Notes under the pieces: generated by a model
The model's database searches: none
Seen by the model: the letters and a program-made list of their open reading frames with translations, nothing else
What the model was told of the DNA's origin: nothing
DNA from: Candidatus Fermentibacteraceae bacterium
Lineage (GTDB): Bacteria; Fermentibacterota; Fermentibacteria; Fermentibacterales; JCC-6
Assembly: GCA_027067855.1 (NCBI GenBank)
Contig: JAMOUX010000002.1
Coordinates: forward strand, 1 to 64,000
Direction: 5' to 3'
DNA: 64,000 nt
In this document: positions 47,263 to 62,464 of the stretch, in pieces
How positions within the stretch are numbered: the first letter of the stretch is position 1
How the letters are laid out: each line of letters opens with the position of its first letter
Made by a program: the position numbers and the translations under genes

Positions 47263-50200
47263 GTGAATCTAGCCTTCGTTCTTTTCGCCGTTCAGGCGGG
47301 CAACGCCGTGTTGTTGGATGGTGAACCGGTGGTGATGAGTCCGGGGGAGACCGTGTTTACATGGGATTGTCCCGAACTGGTTCCCATGGAGGTGGTGCCC
47401 GGGGACTTGGACGGTTTCACCGCCGACGGTTGCGCTTTTTCGGGGGAAGACGGTCGGGTACTTCTTCCGGCGAGGAACGTTTTCCTGGCGGTGCCTCCGG
47501 GCTCCGAGGCGGAACTGAGGGTGATTGCGGAAGGAGTGGAAAGACTGGGACCCGTGAGGATCGCGAGGGTGGATCCGACTCCTTCCGGCTCGGACTCGTA
47601 CTCGCCCGCCGGTTACGACGTTCCTTCCGACTGGGGCGTGATGGTCGAGAAGGGGGAGTTCCGCAGGGCGGGATTACTCCGTGTGCGACTGCATCCGGCG
47701 GTGATCAGGGACGGGATCCTCTATGGGGCTAAAAGGTTAAGGATTACCGTGGAACATCCGTCCCGTTCGCTCCCGGCCCCTTCCGGGGGGGAGTCGGGCA
47801 GGATATTCGACGTGCTGTTCATCGGCGGAAACACCGTATGGGAGTCGCTTCCCCGGGAAACTGACGACAAACGTTTATGGGGTTTGCCGTGGTACTCCAT
47901 GAAAGTGGACACCGCCGGCATCTACAGGGTGACCTGCAGTGAAGTGCCGCAGGCCGAAGGAGCGCCCTCTTCGACTATTGCCCTCTTTTGCGGCCGGGGG
48001 CGTGATATGGGTGACTCTCCCTGGGAAAATGCGTATGAACCCAGGCCCGTGCCGATACTGATGGAAGATGGTGGTGACGGCACCTTTGACCAGGGAGACA
48101 GTTTCGTTTTTTTCGGAAGGGGGCTGTCGTGGTGGGAGTCCGACGGTAACAAGTTGCCGCTGCATTTCAACCACAGGTTCGACGATTCCAACAGGTACTG
48201 GCTGACGTGGGGCGGAGAAGACGGTTCGAGGATGGATGTGCAGGACGGTTCGATCACCGGGGCGCCCGGAGTCCCCGGATCGTTCCTGGCAAGGTACCAC
48301 TTTGAACAAAACACCGAGAAATGCAGGGAAATCGCAAGTCTTGCCGACGATTGGGCATGGATCAAATCTTCCGGCAGCAGTAGCAGTTGGCACTATTTCG
48401 ATTTCGATCTGCCGGAAGCCGACGGAGGGGGCTACCTCCGTCTCAATCTCGATGCGGTGCCGAGTATCCGTCACAGGATTAGGGTTTATCTGAATTCCAG
48501 CATGGTGTGCGATACGGTGTGGTCGGGTTCCGGAACCTTTTCCCCATTGCTCAAGGTGGAAAATTTCGTTGCCGGTAAAAACACTCTTGCACTGGAGGTG
48601 GTAAGGGACCAAGATAGTTATACCCTCTACTTCGACTGGTTCGAGGTTTTCCCCTGGCTGCCGGCGTTTACCGGGGACCGGGTTCACGTTCCCATGGAAT
48701 GGTGGGAAGGAGAGGGCAGGCACGGTCTGAAATGGCCGGACCTGCAGGATGCGGATATCTTCATGGTGGGTGGAGACACCCTGGCGGTAGCCGTTTCCGC
48801 GGCGGACAGTTCCGGGTTCGAGTTCGAATTTCCCGACTCATGGCTTTCCAGGGAGTTCTGGATCGTGGCGAAGGACCGGATGATGACTCCTTCTTCCATA
48901 GAGTACGGAACACCGGGAAGAATAAAGGGTTCCCTCTCCGGCGCGAAGTGCATTTATCTTCCGGCCGACGTGTTCGAAGACGATATCCGGCCCCTGTGCG
49001 GAAGAGAAGGAACCGTTTGCGTGACCGCGTCGGAGGTATACGACGAGTTCAACGGCGGCGTACGTGATCCGGGCGCGATCCGGGCTTTCATCAAATACGT
49101 CGTAGACAACTGGAATCCCATACCGCTCGATCTGGTACTGGTGGGAGGTGGAACCTGGGATCCCCGGCACTTCGCATATTCCAGGGAGTCTTTCATAGAC
49201 GTGCTTTACATTGGGACAACGGCTATCGTCAGCGATGATCGTTTTGCCGTGGTCGGGGACATTTCGATACCGCAGATGGCTGTTTCAAGGATAAACGTGG
49301 ACAATGCTTCCGATCTCCAGAGGGTGGTGAGCCGTTCATTGGAATACAGGAACGGTACCGCCAGGGGCGAGTGGCAGACCGTGGTCCTGGGAGCCGCGGA
49401 CGACGAACGTTCACCCCTTCACGGAAGCGACGAAGTCTACCACACCCGGAGTGTCGAGAAGCTGCTGACGGATCATCTTCCGGGTATACTGCGCCCGGAA
49501 AAGATGTATATGATATTCTACGACTGGAACAGCGCGTGGAAAAAGCCGCAGGCCAGGCTTGATTATATCGAGAAGTGGAGCGAAGGAGCGCTGGTATCCC
49601 TGTACCTGGGGCATGGCTCATTCGACCAGTTGGCCGACGAAGGCCTGCTCTACCTGGAGGATCTGGGGTTGCTTGCGTGTGGTCCCCGACTGCCGGTGGC
49701 CCTGTTCGGATCATGTGACGTCGGTCGTTTCCAGGATCCGTTTTCGCAATGCATAGGTCAGCAGGTTACCACCTCGCCCACCGGGGGGGGCATCCTGGGA
49801 GTGGCCGCCACGGACAAGACCACCGGGCCGCTGAACGAATCCCTGATCGCGGCGATCCTGGACAGGCTTTTTTCGGTACGGCATCTTTCCGCAGGTACTT
49901 GCGTGCTCCTTGGCAAACTGGATGCGGGTTTTTCCACAAACAACGCCCAATACGCGGTTTTCGGGGATGGCAGCGTTCCCCTTGCATACCCGTGGGAAAC
50001 TTTCTCCGTAACGGGTGAATCTCTGTACACCGGTGAACTCAACACCATAAACGGTACGGCCCCGGGCCGGGGTCTGCTGCTGGTGGACGCATGGGAGTCG
50101 TGCCGTCCGGACACCTATTACACCTTCAGACAGTCCGTCCCCATCAGCTACCTGTCGTTGCCGGGCCGGTTCTACTCGGGTACTTCCACGGGAGAGCCGG

Positions 50201-50982
50201 AATTTTCGGTGGATATGTTCGTTCCCGTGGACAGCAAGACGGGCAGGTTGAGCAGGACCGAATTTGTGTTTCTGGACCGGGACGGCATAGCGGTGGCCTC
50301 CACCTATCCGTCGATACTGCTCAAAGGCTCTCCGGGCAGTGACTCTCAGGGTCCGGACATAGAACTCTGGATAGAAGGGTGCAGGGGAATCCCGGACCCG
50401 TCGGTTTCCGGTGAAGTGATGGTATCCGCCGTACTCTCGGACAGTTCCGGCATCAACCTGCTGGATAACGTGGGCAGGCAACTGGTGCTGTACGTGGACG
50501 GTTCGCCCATGGAGGTGTCCCGGTACTTCGAGTACGACAGGGGTTCGAGTACCACCGGGAGCCTGAGTTGCAACATAGGAATTTTGGAACCCGGTACGCA
50601 CAAATTGGTGTTGCGGGCGTCGGACGGTCTTCTTAACGTTTCGGAGGAGGCATTGGAGTTCGATGTAATACAATCGACCGGTTTCCGGATATTCGACGTT
50701 TTCGCGTACCCCAATCCATGTACCGACGGAACGTCCGTCAACTGGCACCAGACTTCTCCGGGGGAAGTGTCGATTTCCATATTCACGTTGACGGGACGCA
50801 GGGTTACGAAGTTCGGGAACATAGATGGGGTAACCGAATATAACCAGTACTGGTGGGATTGCAGAGACAGCGACGGTGACCCGGTTTCGAACGGATCGTA
50901 CATATTTGTGGTTTCACCGCAATCAGTGCCGGTGGGTACCGGGCCCACGGCGGCTACGGGTGTTATAGTCGTGGTACGTTGA
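47263..50982 (+). CDS. PorU-like C25 (gingipain-type) surface peptidase
   Basis: This 1239-residue protein starts from GTG with GGAGG seven bases upstream. It has a short N-terminal hydrophobic start and a long beta-rich prodomain region. The C25 peptidase domain (about 580-860) carries the catalytic dyad His784 in YLGHGSFDQLADEG and Cys818 in LFGSCDVGRFQDP. The C-terminal FlgD/type-A sorting-like domain has FAYPNPCTDGTSVNWHQ and WDCRDSDGDPVSNGSYIFV. In the Bacteroidota PorU is the sortase that removes the C-terminal signal of T9SS cargo and attaches it to the surface. Adjacency to a PorV-type gene argues for that role over a plain protease. Confidence 0.88.
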   Translation: MNLAFVLFAVQAGNAVLLDGEPVVMSPGETVFTWDCPELVPMEVVPGDLDGFTADGCAFSGEDGRVLLPARNVFLAVPPGSEAELRVIAEGVERLGPVRIARVDPTPSGSDSYSPAGYDVPSDWGVMVEKGEFRRAGLLRVRLHPAVIRDGILYGAKRLRITVEHPSRSLPAPSGGESGRIFDVLFIGGNTVWESLPRETDDKRLWGLPWYSMKVDTAGIYRVTCSEVPQAEGAPSSTIALFCGRGRDMGDSPWENAYEPRPVPILMEDGGDGTFDQGDSFVFFGRGLSWWESDGNKLPLHFNHRFDDSNRYWLTWGGEDGSRMDVQDGSITGAPGVPGSFLARYHFEQNTEKCREIASLADDWAWIKSSGSSSSWHYFDFDLPEADGGGYLRLNLDAVPSIRHRIRVYLNSSMVCDTVWSGSGTFSPLLKVENFVAGKNTLALEVVRDQDSYTLYFDWFEVFPWLPAFTGDRVHVPMEWWEGEGRHGLKWPDLQDADIFMVGGDTLAVAVSAADSSGFEFEFPDSWLSREFWIVAKDRMMTPSSIEYGTPGRIKGSLSGAKCIYLPADVFEDDIRPLCGREGTVCVTASEVYDEFNGGVRDPGAIRAFIKYVVDNWNPIPLDLVLVGGGTWDPRHFAYSRESFIDVLYIGTTAIVSDDRFAVVGDISIPQMAVSRINVDNASDLQRVVSRSLEYRNGTARGEWQTVVLGAADDERSPLHGSDEVYHTRSVEKLLTDHLPGILRPEKMYMIFYDWNSAWKKPQARLDYIEKWSEGALVSLYLGHGSFDQLADEGLLYLEDLGLLACGPRLPVALFGSCDVGRFQDPFSQCIGQQVTTSPTGGGILGVAATDKTTGPLNESLIAAILDRLFSVRHLSAGTCVLLGKLDAGFSTNNAQYAVFGDGSVPLAYPWETFSVTGESLYTGELNTINGTAPGRGLLLVDAWESCRPDTYYTFRQSVPISYLSLPGRFYSGTSTGEPEFSVDMFVPVDSKTGRLSRTEFVFLDRDGIAVASTYPSILLKGSPGSDSQGPDIELWIEGCRGIPDPSVSGEVMVSAVLSDSSGINLLDNVGRQLVLYVDGSPMEVSRYFEYDRGSSTTGSLSCNIGILEPGTHKLVLRASDGLLNVSEEALEFDVIQSTGFRIFDVFAYPNPCTDGTSVNWHQTSPGEVSISIFTLTGRRVTKFGNIDGVTEYNQYWWDCRDSDGDPVSNGSYIFVVSPQSVPVGTGPTAATGVIVVVR

Positions 50983-51075
50983 GGTTGATGTATGTTCGCA
51001 GGGCCTGTTACCATGCGGGAACATATTCACCGGAATACCGATGCCGACCTGCAGGGGCACGGTTCAGGAGGACAA

Positions 51076-52089
51076 ATGAAAATTTCATCGATGTTTGTCG
51101 CATTTCTTTTTCTACTATCGATCACGGGGCTCTCCATGGGTGCCACGGCAAGCGTGATCTGGATGACCATCACTCCGGGGGCCAGGCCCAACGGCATGGG
51201 AGAAGCCTTCACCGCCATGTCCGACGATGCCACCGCATCGTATTGGAACCCGGCCGGCCTCGCGTTCTCCGGGGTTTCCGGGAAACAGGAACTGACTCTC
51301 CAGCACAGCAACTGGTTGCCTCAGCTGGCCGACGATCTTTACTATGAGTTCCTGGGATACTCCAAGTATATAGACGGATGGGGAGGAGTCGGCGGTAACA
51401 TCACTTTCATGTCCATGGGTGAACAATTGGAGACTTCCGAGTCGGGCCAGGAACTGGGAGAGTTCTACTCGTACGGTATAGCCATGACCGGTTCTTTCGG
51501 CACCGAGGTGGCTCCCGGCGTTTCAGTGGGCTTGGGGCTGAAATTCATTTATGACCATCTCTACTACCAGGACTCGGGGAAGGGGACGTCGTTCGGGGTC
51601 GATCTGGGCGCATTATACAGGGTGCCCATGGAAGAACTCGGTCTCGAAAATGTAGGCAAGGTCAACTTGGGAGGAAGCCTTTCCAACCTGGGGCCGAACA
51701 TGAGTTACGGCGGCAACACCGAGAATAATCCTCTTCCCAGGACCCTCCGGATGGGGCTTGCGTACATTCCTTTCGACGAGCAGCTGATGAGATTGAGAAT
51801 ATGCGCCGACTACAGTAAGCTCCTGGTGAACGTCGACGACGGTCTGGGAGAAGAATTCAAGGAGAACAAGTGGGGAGTGGGTACCGAGTTCTGGTATTAC
51901 GACCTTCTTGCTCTCAGGGCCGGTTACATCCATGACACCGAGGGTATTTCCACGATACAGGGTCCCACCTTCGGCGCGGGCCTGCAATATGCCGGTTTCC
52001 AGTTGGACATGGCCTTTATACCTGTGGAGGAGAACCTCCAGGGTGCGGGCAAGTACAATTCCAAGTATTCGTTGACTGTGAGATTCTGA
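51076..52089 (+). CDS. PorV/PorQ-like outer-membrane barrel (UPF0164-type)
   Basis: This 337-residue protein starts at ATG 51076 with GGAGGACAA upstream. A signal peptide (MFVAFLFLLSITGLSMG) is followed at once by the PorV/UPF0164 signature PGARPNGMGEAFTAMSDDA and SYWNPAGLAF, then about 14 amphipathic strands ending in YSLTVRF, a typical terminal strand. PorV carries T9SS cargo from the translocon to PorU. The gene directly follows the PorU-like gene, as in Bacteroidota, where porU and porV are adjacent. A 28-residue extension upstream was rejected. Confidence 0.88.
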   Translation: MKISSMFVAFLFLLSITGLSMGATASVIWMTITPGARPNGMGEAFTAMSDDATASYWNPAGLAFSGVSGKQELTLQHSNWLPQLADDLYYEFLGYSKYIDGWGGVGGNITFMSMGEQLETSESGQELGEFYSYGIAMTGSFGTEVAPGVSVGLGLKFIYDHLYYQDSGKGTSFGVDLGALYRVPMEELGLENVGKVNLGGSLSNLGPNMSYGGNTENNPLPRTLRMGLAYIPFDEQLMRLRICADYSKLLVNVDDGLGEEFKENKWGVGTEFWYYDLLALRAGYIHDTEGISTIQGPTFGAGLQYAGFQLDMAFIPVEENLQGAGKYNSKYSLTVRF

Positions 52090-52093
52090 TTCC

Positions 52094-54928
52094 ATGTACA
52101 GAGCGGTGGTCATCGTTTTCCTGACGGCTGCTGTCGGTTTCGGCGCCGCTCCCCTGGTCAGCGGCATTATGCCTCCTCTTCATGAGAGACCGTCGGAAGG
52201 AAAGGCCATCATCGGATCGGCGGAGACCGAAACGGTTTCCAATGGAACGATGAAGGTTTGCATGCTCAGGGTACAGTTTCTTGAGGATTTCACCGATCTC
52301 ACCACCGGCAACGGCAGGATGAACCTGGATGTTTCTCCGCCTCACAACAGGAAATACTTCCAGGGAATGGCCGACGATCTGGCCGCTTATTACCTGGATG
52401 TGAGCGGGGGGAAGGTGATCCTGGATGTGGACGTGTATCCGCCTTCCCGGGACGGTTGCTACACTCTTGATTACCAGATGATGCACTACGGTGACGATGA
52501 TGATTTCATGGGCGGGGTATGCAGGCTTTTCAGAGATGCCGTGAAAGCCGCCGACGGGGACGTGGATTATTCCGGTTACGACGCGGTGATAGTGGTTCAT
52601 GCCGGGGCCGGCCAGGAGGCCGATATCCGCAGGAACAGCCCCGGTGATATCGGTTCGGTGTTCCTGACGCTCATGGACCTGATCTACTACCTGCCGGAGG
52701 CCGGATTGGATTACAGGGGAATACCCACCGATGACGGCGTCTTAGTGGCGGAAGGAATGATAGTCCCGGAACAGGAATCCCAGGATGGATTCGGCCTTGG
52801 GGTTTTGGGCACTCTCGTTCACGAGTTCGGGCACCAATTGGGGCTGCCGGATCTTTACGACACTTTCACCGGAAAGGTCGGGGTCGGCGGATGGGATCTC
52901 ATGGGATACGGTCAGTGGATGATGAGCGGTTTCTGGCCTACGGCTCCCAGCGCCTGGTGCAGGGTTCGCCTTGGTTGGGTCTACCCTATTACGGTCCGGG
53001 AGGGAAACTACGTCGTGGCGGCGAATGATACCGTGCTTAAGGTGCCCTTGAACGCCACCGAATATCTCCTCATAGAAAACAGGCAGCGTGATCCCGACGA
53101 AGACGGTATGTGTGGTGTCGACGAACACGATTTCGGGCTGGCCGGTTCCGGTATTCTCATATGGCATATAGATGAGACCAGGCTGGGCCGGTACGTGGCG
53201 ACCAACATGGTTAACGTGGATCCGGCCCACAAAGGTGTGGATCTGGAGGAAGCCGACGGCATCCAGGACTTCGATTATTCTCTTCCCGACATATATGGGT
53301 ACGAGGGCAGCGAATTCGATCCCTGGTATCCCTCGGGGTACGCATGGATATTTTCTCCCGAATCTGAACCTTCGAGTGACGCCAGCTGGGGGGGGAAGAC
53401 TTTCGTGACCGTCGAGGTTCTGGACGATCCGTCCGGTGAGATGGAGGTATCGATTTCCAGGTCCGGTATTTGTCCCGGATGGCCCGTGTATGCGGGACCC
53501 CTGAAATTTGGTCCGGTACCCTGGAGCGGCGCCGGCGGCGGACGGAAAGACATGGTGGTGGTAACCACGACCACGGGTTATCCATTGGCTTACGACTTGG
53601 ACGGTGAAGGTCCGGTTAACATGGGAAGTGGTGTTTCGGCCTCGCCGGTAGTGGTGGACGCATGGAGCGAGAGCCGGCTTTTACTGTGCGGGGATGACGG
53701 AAGCATACACATCAGGAACCCTCAATGGGAGGAGCCCGAGGGTTGGCCGGTTTATCTTCCGGACGGAGGGAAAGGTATCTACGCATTCTTCGACGGGTCC
53801 GACGGGGTGATCGCCGTGGCCTCCGACAGGAATAAGGTGCACCTTTACGACCTTGCGGGAAAACCTTTGAAGGGATGGCCCAGGCCGGTGTCCGCACCCG
53901 TGGCCGGAATAGCCTGCTACCCGGGAGAAGACGAAAATGCCGGTGTGGTGGCGGCTACCCGTGACGGGAGAGTCTACAGGTGGAATCTTTCCGGGGACGT
54001 TGTGGACGGTTGGCCGGTTATTCCCGGTGATGGCGAGATGAGTATTCCCATGGTATCGGACATGAACAGGGACGGTTGCTATGATGTGGCGGTCCTCAGC
54101 GGGGAATATATCCACGCCTGGGACGGGAACGGTTATCCGCTTCCCGGGTTTCCCGCATTGCTTCCGTCACGGCCCCTCTGCTCGCCGACCCTGGCGGATC
54201 CCGACGAAAACGGAAGGCCTGACATCGTAGTCCCCACGTGGAGTGGTGTTTCAGCGGTGGGTCCTGCCGGGGCCACGCTGGAGAATTGGCCCGTTTCCAT
54301 GGAGCAGGACAGCCTCGTTGCCGGGTTCGTTCCCGGAAGAGGTGGGGCGGGAGGATACGGATTCGCTTTGGTTACGCTTCCCGACGGAAGGATATGCCTG
54401 ATGAACGGCTCCGGAAAGCAACAGGGGGCGTTTCCCCTGTCGGTCGGGGATGCACCGGTCGGTAAACCTCTTCTTTGGAGTCCCGGAGATCAGGGGCGAT
54501 GGAGGGTGGTGGCGGCGGCCTCGAACGGTAATGTCTATTGCTGGTACACGGATTACGAGCCCCGAGGATGGTTTACCGGCGCGGATTGTTCCGGATGCAA
54601 CTGCTGGAGGAAGGAGGATCTCCCTGCGGTGAACGATCCCGGTACCGTATTGCAGGAAGGTTCGTTCTACGTATATCCCAACCCGGTCAGAAACGGGACC
54701 GGGATTGTGAGATTCGTCCCGGGTGTCGACTGTTCGTGGAAGATCAGGATTTTCAATATCGCCGGTGACCTCGTGGCGGAGATGTCCGGCGACGCTCCGG
54801 GCGGATCCGCCTGGGAGGAGGAATGGGATACTGAGGATCTCGCCCCGGGTGTATATTTCGTAACGCTGGAAATATCCTTCCCCGGAGGAAACCTGGAGAC
54901 ACTATTTCACGCGGCGGTGATCAACTGA
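52094..54928 (+). CDS. Secreted M6-type metalloprotease with FG-GAP/propeller region and sorting domain
   Basis: This 944-residue protein has a signal peptide and an M6/immune-inhibitor-A-like peptidase domain (about 50-470) with zinc site HEFGHQLGLPD (H243, H247, D253), and a Met-turn WDLMGYGQWM. The middle (about 490-850) is a WD/PQQ-like propeller of short repeats such as GWPVYLPDGGKGIYAFFDG and DMNRDGCYDVAVL, resembling FG-GAP/VCBS. The end (about 865-944) is a sorting-type domain, FYVYPNPVRNGTGIVRF, with GDLVAEMSGD and APGVYFVTLEI. It is likely T9SS-like cargo for the adjacent PorU/PorV pair. Confidence 0.9.
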   Translation: MYRAVVIVFLTAAVGFGAAPLVSGIMPPLHERPSEGKAIIGSAETETVSNGTMKVCMLRVQFLEDFTDLTTGNGRMNLDVSPPHNRKYFQGMADDLAAYYLDVSGGKVILDVDVYPPSRDGCYTLDYQMMHYGDDDDFMGGVCRLFRDAVKAADGDVDYSGYDAVIVVHAGAGQEADIRRNSPGDIGSVFLTLMDLIYYLPEAGLDYRGIPTDDGVLVAEGMIVPEQESQDGFGLGVLGTLVHEFGHQLGLPDLYDTFTGKVGVGGWDLMGYGQWMMSGFWPTAPSAWCRVRLGWVYPITVREGNYVVAANDTVLKVPLNATEYLLIENRQRDPDEDGMCGVDEHDFGLAGSGILIWHIDETRLGRYVATNMVNVDPAHKGVDLEEADGIQDFDYSLPDIYGYEGSEFDPWYPSGYAWIFSPESEPSSDASWGGKTFVTVEVLDDPSGEMEVSISRSGICPGWPVYAGPLKFGPVPWSGAGGGRKDMVVVTTTTGYPLAYDLDGEGPVNMGSGVSASPVVVDAWSESRLLLCGDDGSIHIRNPQWEEPEGWPVYLPDGGKGIYAFFDGSDGVIAVASDRNKVHLYDLAGKPLKGWPRPVSAPVAGIACYPGEDENAGVVAATRDGRVYRWNLSGDVVDGWPVIPGDGEMSIPMVSDMNRDGCYDVAVLSGEYIHAWDGNGYPLPGFPALLPSRPLCSPTLADPDENGRPDIVVPTWSGVSAVGPAGATLENWPVSMEQDSLVAGFVPGRGGAGGYGFALVTLPDGRICLMNGSGKQQGAFPLSVGDAPVGKPLLWSPGDQGRWRVVAAASNGNVYCWYTDYEPRGWFTGADCSGCNCWRKEDLPAVNDPGTVLQEGSFYVYPNPVRNGTGIVRFVPGVDCSWKIRIFNIAGDLVAEMSGDAPGGSAWEEEWDTEDLAPGVYFVTLEISFPGGNLETLFHAAVIN

Positions 54929-55587
54929 TGAAGAAGTCGTCTTTATTTGCGATAGTTCTGGTATTGCTGCTGGGCGGAGAATCTTCGGCCCTGAATACCC
55001 GGGGAAAAGCGGTGATGAGATCGGCCCTGTTACCTGGATGGGGACAAATTCATCTGGGCCACGAAACCAGGGGCCTGGTTTTCGTGGGGGTGGACCTGGC
55101 TACCTGGGCCGGCGTAGGACTGTCGTACCTGGAAGGCGTCTTCAAAAGGGATGATTACACTTGGCTGGCGTCGTCACAGGCGGGTATCTTCGTGGAAGGA
55201 CGTTCGAGAGACTTTCTCGACGACCTTTCCAATTTCGATTCCAGTACGGAATACAACGACTACGTTCACAGGCTTGCAAGGTACTATTACCCCGACGATC
55301 CGGAAGCTCAGAGGAAGTACTACGAAACCCATGCAAGATATGGTGACGATGCCTGGGACTGGTCTTCGGAAGAGGCCCGGGTCACCTTTGCGAGGCATCT
55401 GCAGGATAGCCGTCAGTGGTTTCGCAGAAGCCTTTACATCGCGGCCTTTGCCCTGGTCAACAGGGTCGTCAGCATTATAGACGTTTCGCTGCTGAAGGAG
55501 GCGGATACCGGTATGTACACCTCGCTGAACTTTCCCGACCGCCGGGACTTCTCCTCGTTCAGGTTCGTCGTGGGAGCGAGGTTCTGA
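54928..55587 (+). CDS. DUF5683-like small membrane-associated protein
   Basis: This 219-residue protein has a signal peptide and the motif RSALLPGWGQIHLGHETRG (about 30-48). This is the P-G-x-G-Q-x-x-x-G element of DUF5683/TM2-like proteins found beside T9SS-type genes in Bacteroidota-related bacteria. Hydrophobic stretches at about 48-66 and 168-185 suggest two TM helices around a polar, Tyr/Asp-rich middle (HRLARYYYPDDPEAQRKYY). Its ATG overlaps the protease stop (ATGA) and its TGA overlaps the next start. The function is unknown, but its coupling to both proteases argues for a role in the same secretion process. Confidence 0.7.
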   Translation: MKKSSLFAIVLVLLLGGESSALNTRGKAVMRSALLPGWGQIHLGHETRGLVFVGVDLATWAGVGLSYLEGVFKRDDYTWLASSQAGIFVEGRSRDFLDDLSNFDSSTEYNDYVHRLARYYYPDDPEAQRKYYETHARYGDDAWDWSSEEARVTFARHLQDSRQWFRRSLYIAAFALVNRVVSIIDVSLLKEADTGMYTSLNFPDRRDFSSFRFVVGARF

Positions 55588-57260
55588 TGGTTTCGCATCT
55601 GCTGGCCGCCCTCCTTGTCCTGGGATCCTCCCCGAACCCGCCGATGTGGACGGATGGAACACCGCTGGTTCCCGGGATAATGGAGATGACCGGGCGTCAC
55701 GACCCCACGGTTCTTCCCTCCGGTCCCCTGGCCTCCGGGGATAAGGGACACGAGGTAGGAGACACCATCAATTTCTGGGCCATCGATTATAGCGGTGAAT
55801 ATCCGAAATTTTACATTACCCCGGCCACATGCAGGTATGTGGGGGGACGTACCTACATCTTCGTGGAGGACAGCCAGTGGGAGGTGAACTACGACCAGGA
55901 GGCGCTCGCGGCCTTTGCCCAATCCCTGGAACATAGTACCCCTGCGTGCTCCCTGGGTATCGTAGAAAGGGACACGCAGGTATTCGGCGGGATTCCCGAC
56001 GAGATCGACGGTGATCCCAAAGTGTACTTCCTCGTGCTGGACATCCGGGACGGGTTCGATCCCCTGGAAGGTGGTTCGTACATAGCCGGTTTCTTCAGCC
56101 CTTACAACCAGTTCACGGAGACGGAGGCTTACCTTTACTACGGAGGTCATTCCAACGAGGTGGAAATGCTGTATATCGACTGTTTTCCGGCCGACCAGTA
56201 CGATGCGGCTTACACGGCGTCCCACGAGTTGGTTCACCTGATACAATGGGGATTGAAACCTTTCAACTCCGAGGAATTGTGGGTGATTGAGAATCAGGCC
56301 CAGGCGGGGACCTTCGTCTGCGGATACCCGGCGTTCCAGGTCACGACCTTTCTGGAGGTGGGCGGAGTAACACCCATAAAGTGGACCGACCTCAATGATA
56401 TGGTCGAATACGTGGCCGGTTACGGGGCCGGTTACCTCTTCTTCGCATACCTGTTCGAGCACTACGGCGGGGAAGATTACCTGTACAGGTCGCTGAGAAC
56501 CTCCGAAGGGGGTATCCAGGGGATTTCACAGGCGATCCTGGAGGCTACCGGGGAATATCCCGATATGGACCGGATACTGGCGGACTGGATGTTGGCATGC
56601 TGGATAGACGATCCCGGGTTCGGTAACGGGAGATACGGATGGAAGTCGTTCAGGATAGCCGATTATGATACCATCGCCCCCGGCAACAGGCCGGGCCTGG
56701 ATTACGACTTTCTGGTGGAACGGGATCCGTTCCTGTCTTCCGGTCATCGTCTCTCGTCGTACCAGGGTGGTTATTACACCGTAAGTCCCCAGGTGGGCGG
56801 CAGTTTCAGGGCCGATGCCTACGGGCTCGGTACCCTGACCTCGTATGTTTACGATCCGGCGGCCGGGACACTGTCGGAAGTGGGAACCGGCATGTCCGGC
56901 GACGTATCGATACCACTCCCCCTGGATGGGGATATATTGCTACTGTGCAGCTCGTTCAGCGGACTGAATCTGGACGTGGCCGCAGGTTCCGTCGCCGGGA
57001 CCGGAGACGTGTTTGCGCTGTATCCCCAGCCGTGTCACGGAACTCTGTACCTGCAGTTCATGTCTGACGGATCCGACGTGGTTTTCGAGATTTTTTCCGT
57101 GGACTCCCGCCACGTGGACACGGTGGAGTTCGAGTCTCCCGGTACCGGCGAGGTCACCCTGGCCTTGCCGGTGGTGGCCGACATGGCCTCGGGGACCTAC
57201 CTGTACAGGTTCAAGCAAGGGAGCAGGGTTGAAACCGGCTCGTTCGCCGTGGTGCGTTAG
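55587..57260 (+). CDS. M30-type secreted metallopeptidase with sorting-like C-terminus
   Basis: This 557-residue protein starts at ATG 55587, overlapping the previous stop (TGATG). It has a signal peptide (HLLAALLVLGSS) and a peptidase domain with zinc ligands in ASHELVHLIQWG (HExxH at 213-217) and a downstream Glu in LWVIENQAQAG (E235). This is the hyicolysin/M30 pattern rather than the aspzincin or gluzincin GTxxD. The C-terminal 80 residues are a degenerate sorting domain, YPQPCHGTLYLQF and TYLYRFKQGS. A plausible T9SS-like cargo. The extension upstream to 55416 overlaps the DUF5683-like gene and was rejected. Confidence 0.82.
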   Translation: MVSHLLAALLVLGSSPNPPMWTDGTPLVPGIMEMTGRHDPTVLPSGPLASGDKGHEVGDTINFWAIDYSGEYPKFYITPATCRYVGGRTYIFVEDSQWEVNYDQEALAAFAQSLEHSTPACSLGIVERDTQVFGGIPDEIDGDPKVYFLVLDIRDGFDPLEGGSYIAGFFSPYNQFTETEAYLYYGGHSNEVEMLYIDCFPADQYDAAYTASHELVHLIQWGLKPFNSEELWVIENQAQAGTFVCGYPAFQVTTFLEVGGVTPIKWTDLNDMVEYVAGYGAGYLFFAYLFEHYGGEDYLYRSLRTSEGGIQGISQAILEATGEYPDMDRILADWMLACWIDDPGFGNGRYGWKSFRIADYDTIAPGNRPGLDYDFLVERDPFLSSGHRLSSYQGGYYTVSPQVGGSFRADAYGLGTLTSYVYDPAAGTLSEVGTGMSGDVSIPLPLDGDILLLCSSFSGLNLDVAAGSVAGTGDVFALYPQPCHGTLYLQFMSDGSDVVFEIFSVDSRHVDTVEFESPGTGEVTLALPVVADMASGTYLYRFKQGSRVETGSFAVVR

Positions 57261-57288
57261 CTCGATATCACTTGTACGAGTTTCGATA

Positions 57289-58008
57289 TTGGTGGCGTTG
57301 ACGATGGTGTCGGTTGAGCCTTGTCTTCCAGGGGTGATGTCGCTGGAGACTCCCGGGAATCTCCTGGAAGCCGAAGTCGATGCGGAAGGTAACGTCTACT
57401 TTCTTTCCCCGGGACTTCCCCACCTGGTCGTTGTTCATAGCGACTGTTCCCGTTCACGTTACGACCTGGACGAGGTGAGGATACCCGGCGGAATGTGGAT
57501 CGACGGGCCGTGGGGATGGTACGTGAGCTGTGAGTTGTCCGGCACGGTCTTCAGATACGATGCGGAGGGTGAACCCGTTTCCTCGTGGGAAGCGCCGGGG
57601 ATCCCGGGTGACGTGGCGGTATCCGGATTCTCCGTTTTTTATGTGTCGAAAACTGATGGAAGTGTGAGGCTCCTCTCGGATCCGGAGGTCTCGGTCACCG
57701 GGGCTTATTCCCTGGAAGACGGCAGATTGAGCCCGATAGTTGATGGATTGGTCTATTCGGGAAGCAATGGAGCCGTGACGGTTGGAATGTTCGATTCCCC
57801 CAGACCGCTTCCCGGTTCCGGATGGTGGGTTTCCGACGGTCTTGAGCCTCTCCTGGTTACGGACTCGTCGGTTTGCAGGAGGAACGGGGACGAACTGTTC
57901 AGGTGGTCTCCTTCTCACTCTTTCTCAAAGGTTTCGGTTTCCCCGGGCGGAAGATACTGCCTCCTGTGGTCTCCCGGGGCTGACGGCGCGATATTGATTT
58001 CGAGGTGA
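57289..58008 (+). CDS. Secreted beta-propeller-like protein
   Basis: This 239-residue protein has a signal-peptide-like start (VALTMVSVEPCLPGVM). A repeated pattern of short strands follows: NLLEAEVDAEGNVYFLSPG, HLVVVHSDCSRSRYDL, GDVAVSGFSVFYVSKTD, and VSPGGRYCLLWSPGADG near the end. This looks like an NHL/SMP-30-type beta-propeller, perhaps incomplete. The start is unclear: TTG 57289 is used, with GTG 57292 and ATG 57304 as alternatives and no strong ribosome site. Its stop overlaps the big barrel gene (GTGA). It may bind the surface structure or cap cargo; function unknown. Confidence 0.55.
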   Translation: MVALTMVSVEPCLPGVMSLETPGNLLEAEVDAEGNVYFLSPGLPHLVVVHSDCSRSRYDLDEVRIPGGMWIDGPWGWYVSCELSGTVFRYDAEGEPVSSWEAPGIPGDVAVSGFSVFYVSKTDGSVRLLSDPEVSVTGAYSLEDGRLSPIVDGLVYSGSNGAVTVGMFDSPRPLPGSGWWVSDGLEPLLVTDSSVCRRNGDELFRWSPSHSFSKVSVSPGGRYCLLWSPGADGAILISR

Positions 58009-61000
58009 TTTCCGGTATTGTCGCTCTGTTCGCGCTGGCATCCATCACGCTGGAAGTGGAGAGCGACGGATCATCCTTTTTCGAAATACCCGATTCCCTG
58101 TGGGTGGCGCCGGGTACCGTAATCGCCGTGGTCTCCGGTGACACCCTGGAAGCCGTTCCAGGAGTTTCAGGCGCCAGGACCGGAATTTTTCTATCGCCGG
58201 TTCCCCGACCGGGGGACACGATCGTTCTCACTTTCGAAGTATTGCCCCTGAACGTTCCCACGTCCGTGGCCCTGGAAATAGGAACCGCCGGAATGGAATT
58301 CGAGGAAGTATCGAACCGGGAACGGTCGTGGGAATCCGCGGACGGTGGTCTTTATGTCTCCGGATCTAAAAGGATCGGTTTTTCCGTTGGAGAGGGTGGC
58401 GGCCTGGACCAGGGCACCAGGATTTCGGTGGAAGGAACGGCGGCGCCCGGAATCACGGTTTCCGGCAATGTTACGGACAGGGAACTGGGGCCCTATTCGT
58501 CGGAACTCGCGTCACAGTTGGACAGGATATTCTTCGAGGTCGAAGGAAGGGAATGGAAGACCAGGCTTGGCGATATGGAATGGAGAAGCGGAGAGGGAAC
58601 CGGTCCCATGGCGTGGAGGCGCGAGGTGAGCGGAATAGATGCCGGTGCCCATGTCGGAGGAGGCTTCACGGTGGGAGCCGGGTATGGAACCTCGGCGGAT
58701 ACCAGGAAGCGGACGGTTTTCCTGACGCAGGAAGGAGTTCAAGGGCCGTACCGGGTTACCTCGGGATGGGAGATCGCTCCCGGAAGCGAACGGGTATGGC
58801 TGGACGGAGAGTTGCTTTGCCGAGGCTCGACGGAGGATTACGAGATGGAATACTCCGCGGGTCTGCTCACTTTCACTCCATCTAGGTTGATAAGAGAGGG
58901 ACAAAGGGTGGAGGTGACATTCTTTCAGCGAGGGGACGGTTTCAGAAAAGACCTGGTGAACGCGGCCGGTTCGTACGTAGACGGATCCCTTTCCGTTGAA
59001 GTGAAGGGTTTCTCCAGCGGCGACGACAGGAATTCCCCCCTGGGTTTCGTTCTGACTCCGGAAGCCATGGCCGCTTTGGCCGCCGCCGGTGAAGATTCTT
59101 CGATGGCCTGGGTGGACGGCGGTGAGTACGTGGGGGATGGGAATGGGGATTATACCCTGGATTCCCTGGAACACTTCGTGTACCGGGGGCCGGATCAGGG
59201 TGACTGGAGCGTCGTGTTCGGTAGACCGCCGGACGGAAACGGTGACTACGTTTATGACAGCCAGCTGGGGGGGTATCTTTGGATCGGGGAAGGGGAAGGC
59301 ACTCACCTGCCCAGGCAATACGTCCAGATTCCTTCTTCTTATGAGACCGGTGCGGCGGCCGCGTCCCTCGACGGAGAAGAACTCGACCTGCACATGGAAG
59401 CGGCGCTCTCCAGGAGGACCGGTAACCTGTTCAACCCCGGGGAAACCACCAGGGAGGGGACCTATCTGTCGGGTTCCGGTGACATGGAGTTTTGGGAGGG
59501 GGGGCCCGGAATAACCGTGAAAGGAAGGTTCGTTTCCTGCGGATACCGTTCTCCCGGTCGGCTGGAGGCCGACAGCTCGCTTTCCTCATGGTCGTTGCCC
59601 GCGGGTTATAACGGTAACGATAACCTCCTGTCCGTGGGATTGGGGGGAGACAGGCTGATGTTCAGGGGCGGAGGAAGATACCTCGAGGAGGGTGGAATAG
59701 TGGAGCGATACTCGCTCTCTACGGAACCTTTGCTTGCCGGATTATGTTTTTCCTCGAGGGGGTATACGCTTAAACGTGTGGGCACTACCGGGTTGGCTGT
59801 CGGAGGGATATCCGGCATCGGACTCTCCGTCATCCCGGAGCAAGGTTCGCTGAAGCCCTTTGCCGGTTTCGAGACTTCCGGGGAGACGTGGGCCGACAGT
59901 GTGCACGGGCCCGTGAGGACCGGCTTCGGAGGTGCTCTGCTCGAAACTCCGGATATGAAAGGGTCGCTGAGACTGGAGCTTCGGCGTGACGCCAGGGAGG
60001 GGGGCGGGGCTCCGGGTCCGATGAGGGTATTCAGGGGAAAACTGGAAGGCTCGTATACTTTTATGGAGTACAGCTTGAAAGGGAGCCTGGAACATTCCCT
60101 CACCGGTTACGACGAGGGGGGAAGATTGCAGGCGGACGCCGTGCGGCTTTCATTCACCGGAATTTCGGGGGACCTGTGGTCGGAAACGGCGTATAGTGCT
60201 TCCGGCACCATAAGTCATTCTCTTGAAGTAGTTTATGTTTATGTTGGAGAGGGATCCGGCGAATACTCGTATGATCCCGACAGCGGTGAATACTACCCGG
60301 ATCCGGGTGGTGGGTACGTGTTGGTCTACCGGCCCGGGGAAGAAGGGCGGAAGGTGACGTCGGCTTTACTGGAATCGACCGCGACACTCTCCGGGGATGG
60401 TTTCGGGCTGAACGCCGCCGCAGGTATTTCATCGGGGGGAGAGGAGCGAACGGCCTCGTTGCTCCTGTATGGAGCCTTTAACGAGGAGAACGCAGGGGGA
60501 TACAATCTGGAACTCTCCCCATGGATGTCCTGGGAGGAGGGATTGCTGTCCAGGCTGGACCTGGATCTTTCGGTCAGCGACAGGCGAACGGAGTACAGCG
60601 GTCCCGGGTTGCTTGCTGAAAAGGAATGGTCCGTGAAGGCGTCGCCCGTCCTTGTACCGCTGAAGGACCTGGAAATTCGCATGGAGGCCGGAACGTGGAG
60701 GCGCAGGCAAACCCTTTATTCCCACAGAGACACCAGGGGAACCAGGCTGGAAGTCGATCCCGTCCTGGTGGGGAGCGGGCTGCGCCCGGGTCTGGCTCTC
60801 GCATGGGAAGGAAGAAAAGAAAAGAACTCGGGGCTTTCGGCGGAACTTTTCGAAATATCTCCGCATTTTTCGTGGACGGGATCCGGATGGTACTCGACAT
60901 CGACGGTGACGGCGGGTTACATGCCCGGGGAGGCCGAAATACCCGTATGGTTCTTCGACGGTAACAGGCCGGGGCTTTCCTGGAGGGTGTCGGCGAGGGT

Positions 61001-61112
61001 AAGCAAGAAACTGGAGTCGGGGCTGGACCTGGGTTTGTTCTACAACGGCCGCAGACCCGCGGACGAGGGTTGGACCCAAATGGCCGGGCTGGACGGGACG
61101 GTAAACTTTTGA
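58005..61112 (+). CDS. Large outer-membrane barrel protein with SprA-like features
   Basis: This 1035-residue protein has a signal peptide (ISGIVALFALASITL) and then a very strand-rich sequence. Near 258-305 it shows ERVWLDGELL, DYEMEYSAGLLTF and EGQRVEVTFF, the repeated 'G-s-E-x-V-x-L-D-G / Y-E-i-D-Y-x-x-G-x-l-t-F' element of SprA/Sov, the T9SS translocon. Two G-x-Y-x-Y-D blocks at about 378-420 and 747-770 (GNGDYVYDSQLGGY; GSGEYSYDPDSGEYYP) are also of that style. Its size is about half that of SprA, so it would be a smaller barrel. The GTG start overlaps the upstream stop. Family membership is inferred from motif style only. Confidence 0.65.
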   Translation: MISGIVALFALASITLEVESDGSSFFEIPDSLWVAPGTVIAVVSGDTLEAVPGVSGARTGIFLSPVPRPGDTIVLTFEVLPLNVPTSVALEIGTAGMEFEEVSNRERSWESADGGLYVSGSKRIGFSVGEGGGLDQGTRISVEGTAAPGITVSGNVTDRELGPYSSELASQLDRIFFEVEGREWKTRLGDMEWRSGEGTGPMAWRREVSGIDAGAHVGGGFTVGAGYGTSADTRKRTVFLTQEGVQGPYRVTSGWEIAPGSERVWLDGELLCRGSTEDYEMEYSAGLLTFTPSRLIREGQRVEVTFFQRGDGFRKDLVNAAGSYVDGSLSVEVKGFSSGDDRNSPLGFVLTPEAMAALAAAGEDSSMAWVDGGEYVGDGNGDYTLDSLEHFVYRGPDQGDWSVVFGRPPDGNGDYVYDSQLGGYLWIGEGEGTHLPRQYVQIPSSYETGAAAASLDGEELDLHMEAALSRRTGNLFNPGETTREGTYLSGSGDMEFWEGGPGITVKGRFVSCGYRSPGRLEADSSLSSWSLPAGYNGNDNLLSVGLGGDRLMFRGGGRYLEEGGIVERYSLSTEPLLAGLCFSSRGYTLKRVGTTGLAVGGISGIGLSVIPEQGSLKPFAGFETSGETWADSVHGPVRTGFGGALLETPDMKGSLRLELRRDAREGGGAPGPMRVFRGKLEGSYTFMEYSLKGSLEHSLTGYDEGGRLQADAVRLSFTGISGDLWSETAYSASGTISHSLEVVYVYVGEGSGEYSYDPDSGEYYPDPGGGYVLVYRPGEEGRKVTSALLESTATLSGDGFGLNAAAGISSGGEERTASLLLYGAFNEENAGGYNLELSPWMSWEEGLLSRLDLDLSVSDRRTEYSGPGLLAEKEWSVKASPVLVPLKDLEIRMEAGTWRRRQTLYSHRDTRGTRLEVDPVLVGSGLRPGLALAWEGRKEKNSGLSAELFEISPHFSWTGSGWYSTSTVTAGYMPGEAEIPVWFFDGNRPGLSWRVSARVSKKLESGLDLGLFYNGRRPADEGWTQMAGLDGTVNF

Positions 61113-62464
61113 CGGGCGTGGCCTCGTTCGTTCTGATCTTGCTGGTGTCGGGGAACCCGGTGTACGTGTCCCTGAAGGGAAGTCCCCCGTTGCCCGACAT
61201 CCGGGAATTGGGCTTCGCCGCCATGATCGTTACCGATTCGTCCATGGCCGACCTGCAGGAAGGGTTGATGAAATGGTATCTCGACGAGGGTTATCCCTTC
61301 GCTTCCGCCGGTTTCTACTTTTCTTCGGAAGATACCCTGGTGGTCAACGTGGTTCCGGGAAGGCACGCCCTTCTGGAGGAAATAAGAATAGAAGGGATGC
61401 CGGGAACCAGGCCTCGGGTTTTCACGAGGCTCATGCCCCGTGGTCTGGGAGAGCCCTTCAGCAGGGAAGTCCTGGAAGAATGGCTCCGGAGGATAGGGAA
61501 GCTGCCGTTCGTGGCTGCCGTCGGTTCCACGGAACTGCTGCTGGGACCGCGGGGCAACCTGGTGGTCGTTCAGCACCTGGTGAAGGGGAAACAGGGCCAT
61601 TTCACCGCATCCCTGGACTGGAAGGGTGAATCCCTGGAAGGCATGGGAGAGGTGCGCCTTCTGAACCTTGCGGGTACGGCCAGGAAACTCGGAATATCGG
61701 GAAAGACCGTGGCATGGGGAGGATTCGATGCCCACCTGGATTACCTGGAACCGTGGATATTCGGAACTCCGGTTTCACTGTTCCTGGTAATGTCGCAGGA
61801 AACGCCAGAAAGCGCCTGGGTGAACAGGGAAGGCAGTCTTGAAGGAATATTGGACCTGGGAAGGGTCTCCGTATCCATGGGAGCGGGTGCATGGCGCGGA
61901 TTTCCTCCCGGTGGCGCCCGGGAAAAATACGATTACGGATCAGCGGGTATGGGTTACGATGCGAAAAAAAAGGTGCCCCAGGGGTCCGGCGGCCTGGATG
62001 TGGCGCTGCGGTGCAGGGCGGGCCGCAGGATGGAGGCCGACTCGACAGGTGTCCTGTCCATGGCGCATCTTTCATTCGACTACCGTTTCTATCAAGGGGT
62101 GCTGGGTGCCGGTGGCAGCGTTTCCGGTGGGGGAGTTCTGCAGGGAGATTGTTTTACCGGCCTTATGGACAGGTTGGGAGGGCAATCCACGTTGAGAGGA
62201 TATCCGGAAAATGCCTTCCGCGCCAAAATGCACGTATTGGCCAGGCCGGAGTTGTCCCTTGGTGAAACCGAGACCAGGATATATGTCTTCACTGATGCCG
62301 CCATATTGAAGAACGAAGAAAATGAGATACTTCGCCCGGTAGGCGTGGGAATAGGCATGCGAGGGGCGAGCGGCGTGTTCGACGCCGATGTTTCCGCGGG
62401 CTTTCCCCTGGAAGAAGGCATCGGCGGCGCCAGGGTCTACCTGGAACTCACCGCGTCGATCTGA
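61109..62464 (+). CDS. Omp85/BamA-family outer-membrane protein with one POTRA
   Basis: This 451-residue protein starts from TTG 61109 overlapping the upstream stop (TTGA). It has a signal peptide (ASFVLILLVSGNPVYVS) and one or possibly two POTRA domains (about 30-165; DSSMADLQEGLMKWYLDEGYPF and VFTRLMPRGLGEPFSREVL). A C-terminal 16-strand barrel (about 175-451) carries the lid-lock motif GGQSTLRGYPENAFRA, the (V/L)RGF-type element of Omp85 proteins. The length is close to TamA- or FhaC-type members and shorter than BamA. It may assist insertion of the large barrel encoded just before it. Confidence 0.85.
   Translation: MTGVASFVLILLVSGNPVYVSLKGSPPLPDIRELGFAAMIVTDSSMADLQEGLMKWYLDEGYPFASAGFYFSSEDTLVVNVVPGRHALLEEIRIEGMPGTRPRVFTRLMPRGLGEPFSREVLEEWLRRIGKLPFVAAVGSTELLLGPRGNLVVVQHLVKGKQGHFTASLDWKGESLEGMGEVRLLNLAGTARKLGISGKTVAWGGFDAHLDYLEPWIFGTPVSLFLVMSQETPESAWVNREGSLEGILDLGRVSVSMGAGAWRGFPPGGAREKYDYGSAGMGYDAKKKVPQGSGGLDVALRCRAGRRMEADSTGVLSMAHLSFDYRFYQGVLGAGGSVSGGGVLQGDCFTGLMDRLGGQSTLRGYPENAFRAKMHVLARPELSLGETETRIYVFTDAAILKNEENEILRPVGVGIGMRGASGVFDADVSAGFPLEEGIGGARVYLELTASI

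Follow-up and report, generated by a model that had tools for sequence, protein, structure and literature searches.

Does the giant β-barrel protein encoded at this locus represent the T9SS translocon SprA in a reduced form, or does it serve T9SS bacteria in another way? The question is raised by a 1035-residue protein encoded in one run of genes with PorU- and PorV-like proteins in the window, i.e. the whole 64,000-nt stretch of DNA analysed here. We consider it probable, if by no means assured, that the barrel belongs to an undescribed, widespread family, distantly related to SprA, which, in FCB-group bacteria with a T9SS, would act alongside SprA as a T9SS-linked companion and would not replace SprA.

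A conserved barrel gene in a PorU/PorV neighbourhood

The open reading frame lies on the forward strand (58005–61112), starts with GTG and encodes a predicted giant SprA-related outer-membrane barrel with amphipathic strands and a C-terminal Phe; position and length are as originally predicted. A Pfam profile search with the 1035-residue protein returned zero matches, and an NCBIfam search returned one, a local match to TIGR04189 (SprA; E 8.5e-4, 16.6 bits); neither Pfam nor NCBIfam has a model for the family. As judged by protein searches, the gene is present in single copy in 41 of the 60 sampled genomes. The observation is not due to chance, since the protein keeps 37–61% identity across its own order and, in other phyla, about 20%, or about 30% if the N-terminal half is taken alone. 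Invariant residues run along the whole barrel, including the C-terminal Phe, in an alignment of 18 members, and a 28-member alignment drawn from many families gives the same conservation pattern. The conserved block of the latter reads SDQ..P.QPEG.T..L.ELD, followed by EG.QGPY....GSE.V..DG...RG..DY.IDY..G.ITFT, its second half being the SprA-like segment discussed below. Family members are about 950–1300 residues long. In Ca. Sabulitectum silens (L038, 6320–9423; L076) the barrel gene is split into several frames, which may reflect a sequencing error or a decayed copy.

Upstream of the barrel gene, and on the same strand, the window encodes a PorU-like C25 sortase with a T9SS CTD (47263–50982; PF01364, E 4.8e-52; NF033707, E 2.9e-95), a PorV-family protein (50992–52089; NF033709, E 1e-67), an M6-like T9SS-dependent protein with a type A CTD (52094–54928; NF052323, E 3.9e-93; TIGR04183, 24.3 bits), a small DUF5683-like protein also seen at the PorUV locus in other lineages (54928–55587; a weak PF18935 match, E 0.0024), an exported protein with an HExxH-like region and a weak T9SS CTD (55587–57260; TIGR04183, E 0.0074; MXAN_6640_HExxH, E 0.024) and a small exported protein (57256–58008). 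A short Omp85/BamA-like protein (61106–62464, forward strand, exact start uncertain) follows the barrel. The same arrangement is found within the order. The M6-like protein matches the NCBIfam family of 'inactivated' T9SS-dependent M6 proteins and accompanies PorU/PorV in several lineages. The original prediction had placed the barrel in one transcription unit with the PorU/PorV-like genes; the run is indeed tight and co-directional, and may well be transcribed as one.

The two immediate neighbours recur as partners of the barrel. While the small exported protein upstream returned zero matches in a Pfam search, phmmer detects similarity to an NHL protein of another lineage (L114; E 4.6e-4) and its position is conserved; it probably corresponds to the NHL-propeller protein found there. 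The downstream protein is a member of the Omp85 superfamily, combining POTRA domains with an Omp85 barrel: it matches TIGR03303 below the cut-off (E 2.9e-8) and PF07244 and PF01103 at sub-threshold level, carries an LRGY motif, and its AlphaFold2 model (pLDDT 78.5) has two POTRA-like units and about 14–16 strands. Homologous Omp85 neighbours in other lineages match PF01103 clearly, and the window's Omp85 is an additional paralogue that exists besides a larger BamA-like protein.

Outside Bacteroidota and the order itself, an Omp85 gene lies directly downstream of the barrel gene in 15 of 21 neighbourhoods and a propeller gene directly upstream in 13 of 21; in representative neighbours, Pfam searches confirm the NHL repeats and the Omp85/POTRA domains. 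Outside Bacteroidota, the usual arrangement is thus a cassette in which the giant barrel is flanked by a propeller protein and a BamA-like Omp85. The genes porU, porV and M6 stand just upstream of the barrel in three further loci (L032, L121 and L123) and parts of the set do so in L113 and L120; all or part of the porU/porV/M6/DUF5683 synteny is seen in four other families (L032, L121, L123/L120 and L113). In the Bacteroidota neighbourhoods examined, the barrel gene adjoins neither Omp85 nor T9SS genes, and only one of these neighbourhoods keeps a propeller.

Co-occurrence of the barrel with full-length SprA

A separate full-length SprA is encoded by all 22 of the same-order relatives that have the barrel (own genome not counted). 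These SprA proteins are mostly about 1870–1900 residues long, with open frames of 1544–1652 residues in a few, and their genes lie on another contig than the barrel, adjoining lptF/lptG-like and pilB-like genes. In G015, a 92% complete genome of the same genus, SprA is present and the short barrel was undetected, through either loss or an assembly gap. Outside the phylum, SprA accompanies the barrel in 78 of 78 barrel-positive genomes of a 388-genome sample (E ≤ 1e-30 for the barrel, E ≤ 1e-15 for SprA). Among 248 Bacteroidota, SprA is present in all 146 barrel-positive genomes, a further 45 carry SprA alone and 57 lack both; since these counts include related genomes, which are not independent, the Fisher p-values are not to be taken literally. 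Furthermore, independent SprA losses are few, so that the raw counts make the nesting look stronger as evidence than it is. As 45 of the 191 SprA-positive Bacteroidota do without the barrel that the other 146 possess, it is dispensable for the T9SS as such. One Bacteroidota species (G571) has the barrel along with an SprA that hardly differs from the F. johnsoniae protein, from which we infer that laboratory Flavobacterium very probably also has a protein of this family, which in F. johnsoniae UW101 would be about 1150 residues long. In a related Flavobacterium genome (L138), the barrel gene lies close to a gene for an aspartate-kinase-like protein. The family has so far been found only in bacteria with SprA, apparently including Flavobacterium.

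In the source genome (G000), searches with SprA of the same genus and with LptF both returned no match, but samples from the two ends of a 72-kb stretch of contig C11 (8001–80000) read N, with one open frame spanning the full stretch, and negative searches in this genome are therefore unreliable. Positions 80001–110000 of C11 are collinear with contig 13 of the same-genus genome G001 from 36 kb on. Since sprA lies at 10.3–15.9 kb of the latter contig, its counterpart in the source genome is expected inside the N stretch, adjoining lptF/lptG at around 54–60 kb. Loss of SprA from the source genome, which we had entertained, was rejected once this stretch was found to read N; a 24,259-residue open frame on C11 is false and comes from the same run of N. 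The T9SS sorting-domain model has 34 matches in the source genome, about 31 of them over the cut-off (type A CTD), and a working T9SS is therefore likely.

The co-occurrence could also reflect nothing but shared ancestry, if the barrel serves outer-membrane biogenesis or transport (lipid, glycan or OMP assembly) in the FCB group in general and works with the BamA-like Omp85. Such a role would suit the Omp85 partner, the Bacteroidota copies unlinked to T9SS genes and the small number of independent SprA losses. However, leaving aside the source genome with its N stretch, the barrel was never found without SprA in two samples, and in several lineages it is placed repeatedly behind porU-porV-M6. 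On balance, we regard a general biogenesis role as possible but rather doubtful.

Predicted structure of the barrel

The AlphaFold2 model of the barrel, computed from 30 sequences and of modest confidence (pLDDT 71.8, pTM 0.56), has a small N-terminal β domain followed by about 40 long strands between residues 115 and 1034; segments 343–442 and 749–771 are of low confidence yet conserved. Hydrophobicity alternates along the strands far beyond what is seen in shuffled strands (z 7.5). With about 40 long amphipathic strands, the predicted barrel is not half the size of SprA, and the 'half-size' label of the original prediction holds for the chain and fails for the predicted strand number. To our knowledge, very few giant single-chain barrels are known; SprA has 36 strands.

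Foldseek comparison of the model with the PDB returned generic barrels only, with TM-scores of 0.31 or lower and no close fold. Ranked by E-value, the matches are headed by SlpA, TonB receptors and other barrels of this generic kind; with TM-scores normalised by the query, SprA structures come first among the matches listed, but reach only 0.27. Searches of PDB sequences with the barrel, both single-sequence and profile, found nothing relevant, and the Pfam profile search returned no LptD match.

As the barrel gene sits among genes for CTD-bearing cargo, its product might itself be secreted T9SS surface cargo and not an integral outer-membrane protein, but the barrel has no CTD match, it has a C-terminal Phe and amphipathic strands, and its gene neighbours an Omp85 gene, which makes a cargo role very unlikely. 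We give scarcely any credence to an ordinary TonB-dependent receptor, usher or porin-like barrel: while the best Foldseek E-values go to SlpA, TonB receptors and generic barrels, the TM-scores are low, Pfam matches to the plug and receptor domains are absent from the ORF and 17 homologues, and the predicted strand number is well above the 22 of TonB-dependent receptors. Families of the TonB receptor, usher and porin-like type have 16–24 strands. The ordinary TonB-type or porin-like barrel that the original prediction had considered as the opposite outcome was not obtained.

Relation to SprA

The TIGR04189 match aligns residues 253–306 of the barrel (58761–58922, forward strand; PGSERVWLDG..RG..DYEMEY.AGLLTFTPSRLI) with positions 600–651 of the 2319-position profile (52 positions). 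Within it, at about residues 264–290, lies the LDG...DYEMEYSAGLLTF block. This is the SprA-like LDG segment of the original prediction, which is present and matched by TIGR04189, although its motif reads D-Y-E-M-E-Y and not Y-E-x-D-Y; the G-x-Y-x-(Y/L)-D blocks were also found, at residues 381–386, 413–418 and 750–771, and are conserved across the order. Seventeen of 18 family members match TIGR04189 locally (best E 8.5e-8), and hhalign of the barrel family with full-length SprA from the same and other phyla gives 92 aligned columns with a probability of 91 and E 1e-6, so that profile–profile comparison bears out a relation to SprA. In HMM searches both ways between the barrel family and SprA, the module alone is significant. 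As judged by these comparisons, detectable SprA homology is confined to one module of 50–90 residues. Three family members also match the phage distal tail model TIGR02217 (best 2.7e-4), and the module alone is therefore weak evidence for a common function.

The β module, with the consensus GPY...SE.V..DG...DY.IDY..G.I.F, seems to be doubled in many members: in the window, a copy at 58044–58235 (residues 14–77) precedes that at residues 253–306. The doubled module bears a weak resemblance to a domain of phage distal tail proteins (TIGR02217/DUF2460).

The barrel is not SprA itself. Its 16.6 bits compare with a curated TIGR04189 cut-off of 200 bits, the profile is covered at positions 600–651 only, and Pfam searches of the ORF and 17 homologues found no SprA_N domain (PF14349). 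Nor is it its genome's sole SprA, as judged by relatives in which both proteins are encoded. That the barrel is the T9SS translocon of its lineage, as an ancestral or simplified SprA, is hardly conceivable to us: the SprA-like module, the large predicted barrel, the run of genes with PorU/PorV and the lack of an SprA match in its own genome would all suit such a role, but barrel-positive genomes of the same order (22/22) and distant ones alike have a separate SprA, and the missing match is explained by the N stretch (C11:8001–80000) together with same-genus synteny. What survives of the proposed half-size or ancestral SprA translocon is thus a predicted giant barrel with one SprA-like module and a tie to PorU/PorV; the translocon itself falls with the separate full-length SprA of every relative tested.

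Possible role and comparison with known systems

A T9SS accessory fits better than a translocon, we suggest, because the barrel is not seen without SprA, often stands behind porU-porV and is dispensable in some SprA genomes. Family conservation, co-occurrence with SprA, the PorU/PorV link in several lineages and the cassette outside Bacteroidota are computed directly. The presence of a dedicated Omp85 beside so unusually large a barrel suggests that the Omp85 would help to insert or gate it; the propeller would dock on the barrel, and the complex would work beside the SprA–PorV translocon. Most likely, the complex would serve part of the T9SS traffic as an accessory conduit or docking scaffold, or would take part in surface processing after SprA. 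More speculatively, and we would rate this specific version as unlikely, the barrel may form a second giant, single-chain FCB channel of about 38–40 strands that handles a particular group of T9SS substrates or their delivery from PorV to the surface, equipped with a BamA-like assembler and a propeller subunit outside Bacteroidota.

We found no description of an SprA-like second barrel, or of a T9SS in Fermentibacteria, in the open-access literature; keyword searches of papers on the SprA translocon (PMC10994853) and on the BAM complex of F. johnsoniae (PMC12611786) turned up no passage on a second barrel of this kind. A second family of this size would be outer-membrane machinery that has escaped notice next to a well-studied secretion system. 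SprA-positive genomes that lack the barrel provide a natural comparison for its role, which the apparent presence of the family in Flavobacterium makes testable.

Among known systems, SprA/Sov (TIGR04189; PDB 6H3I, 6H3J, 8GL6 and 8GL8) resembles the barrel in being a giant outer-membrane barrel that shares one β module with it (residues 253–306), occurs in the same genomes and is genetically linked to PorV/PorU. The barrel differs in being about half as long, in leaving the rest of the profile unmatched, in lacking SprA_N and in coexisting with SprA; about 40 strands are predicted as compared to 36, and the global TM-score between its model and the SprA structure 6H3J is 0.27. LptD is the 26-strand lipopolysaccharide barrel: both are very large outer-membrane barrels, but LptD has fewer strands and other neighbours. 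The downstream partner shares POTRA domains, the Omp85 barrel and the RGY motif with Omp85 proteins of the BamA/TamA type, from which it differs in being short (about 450 residues in this phylum, about 590 elsewhere) and linked to a giant barrel. Finally, the upstream partner resembles NHL six-bladed propeller proteins, with NHL repeats (PF01436) in other lineages and divergence beyond Pfam detection in this phylum; unlike NHL-repeat propeller proteins generally, it holds a conserved position adjoining the barrel.
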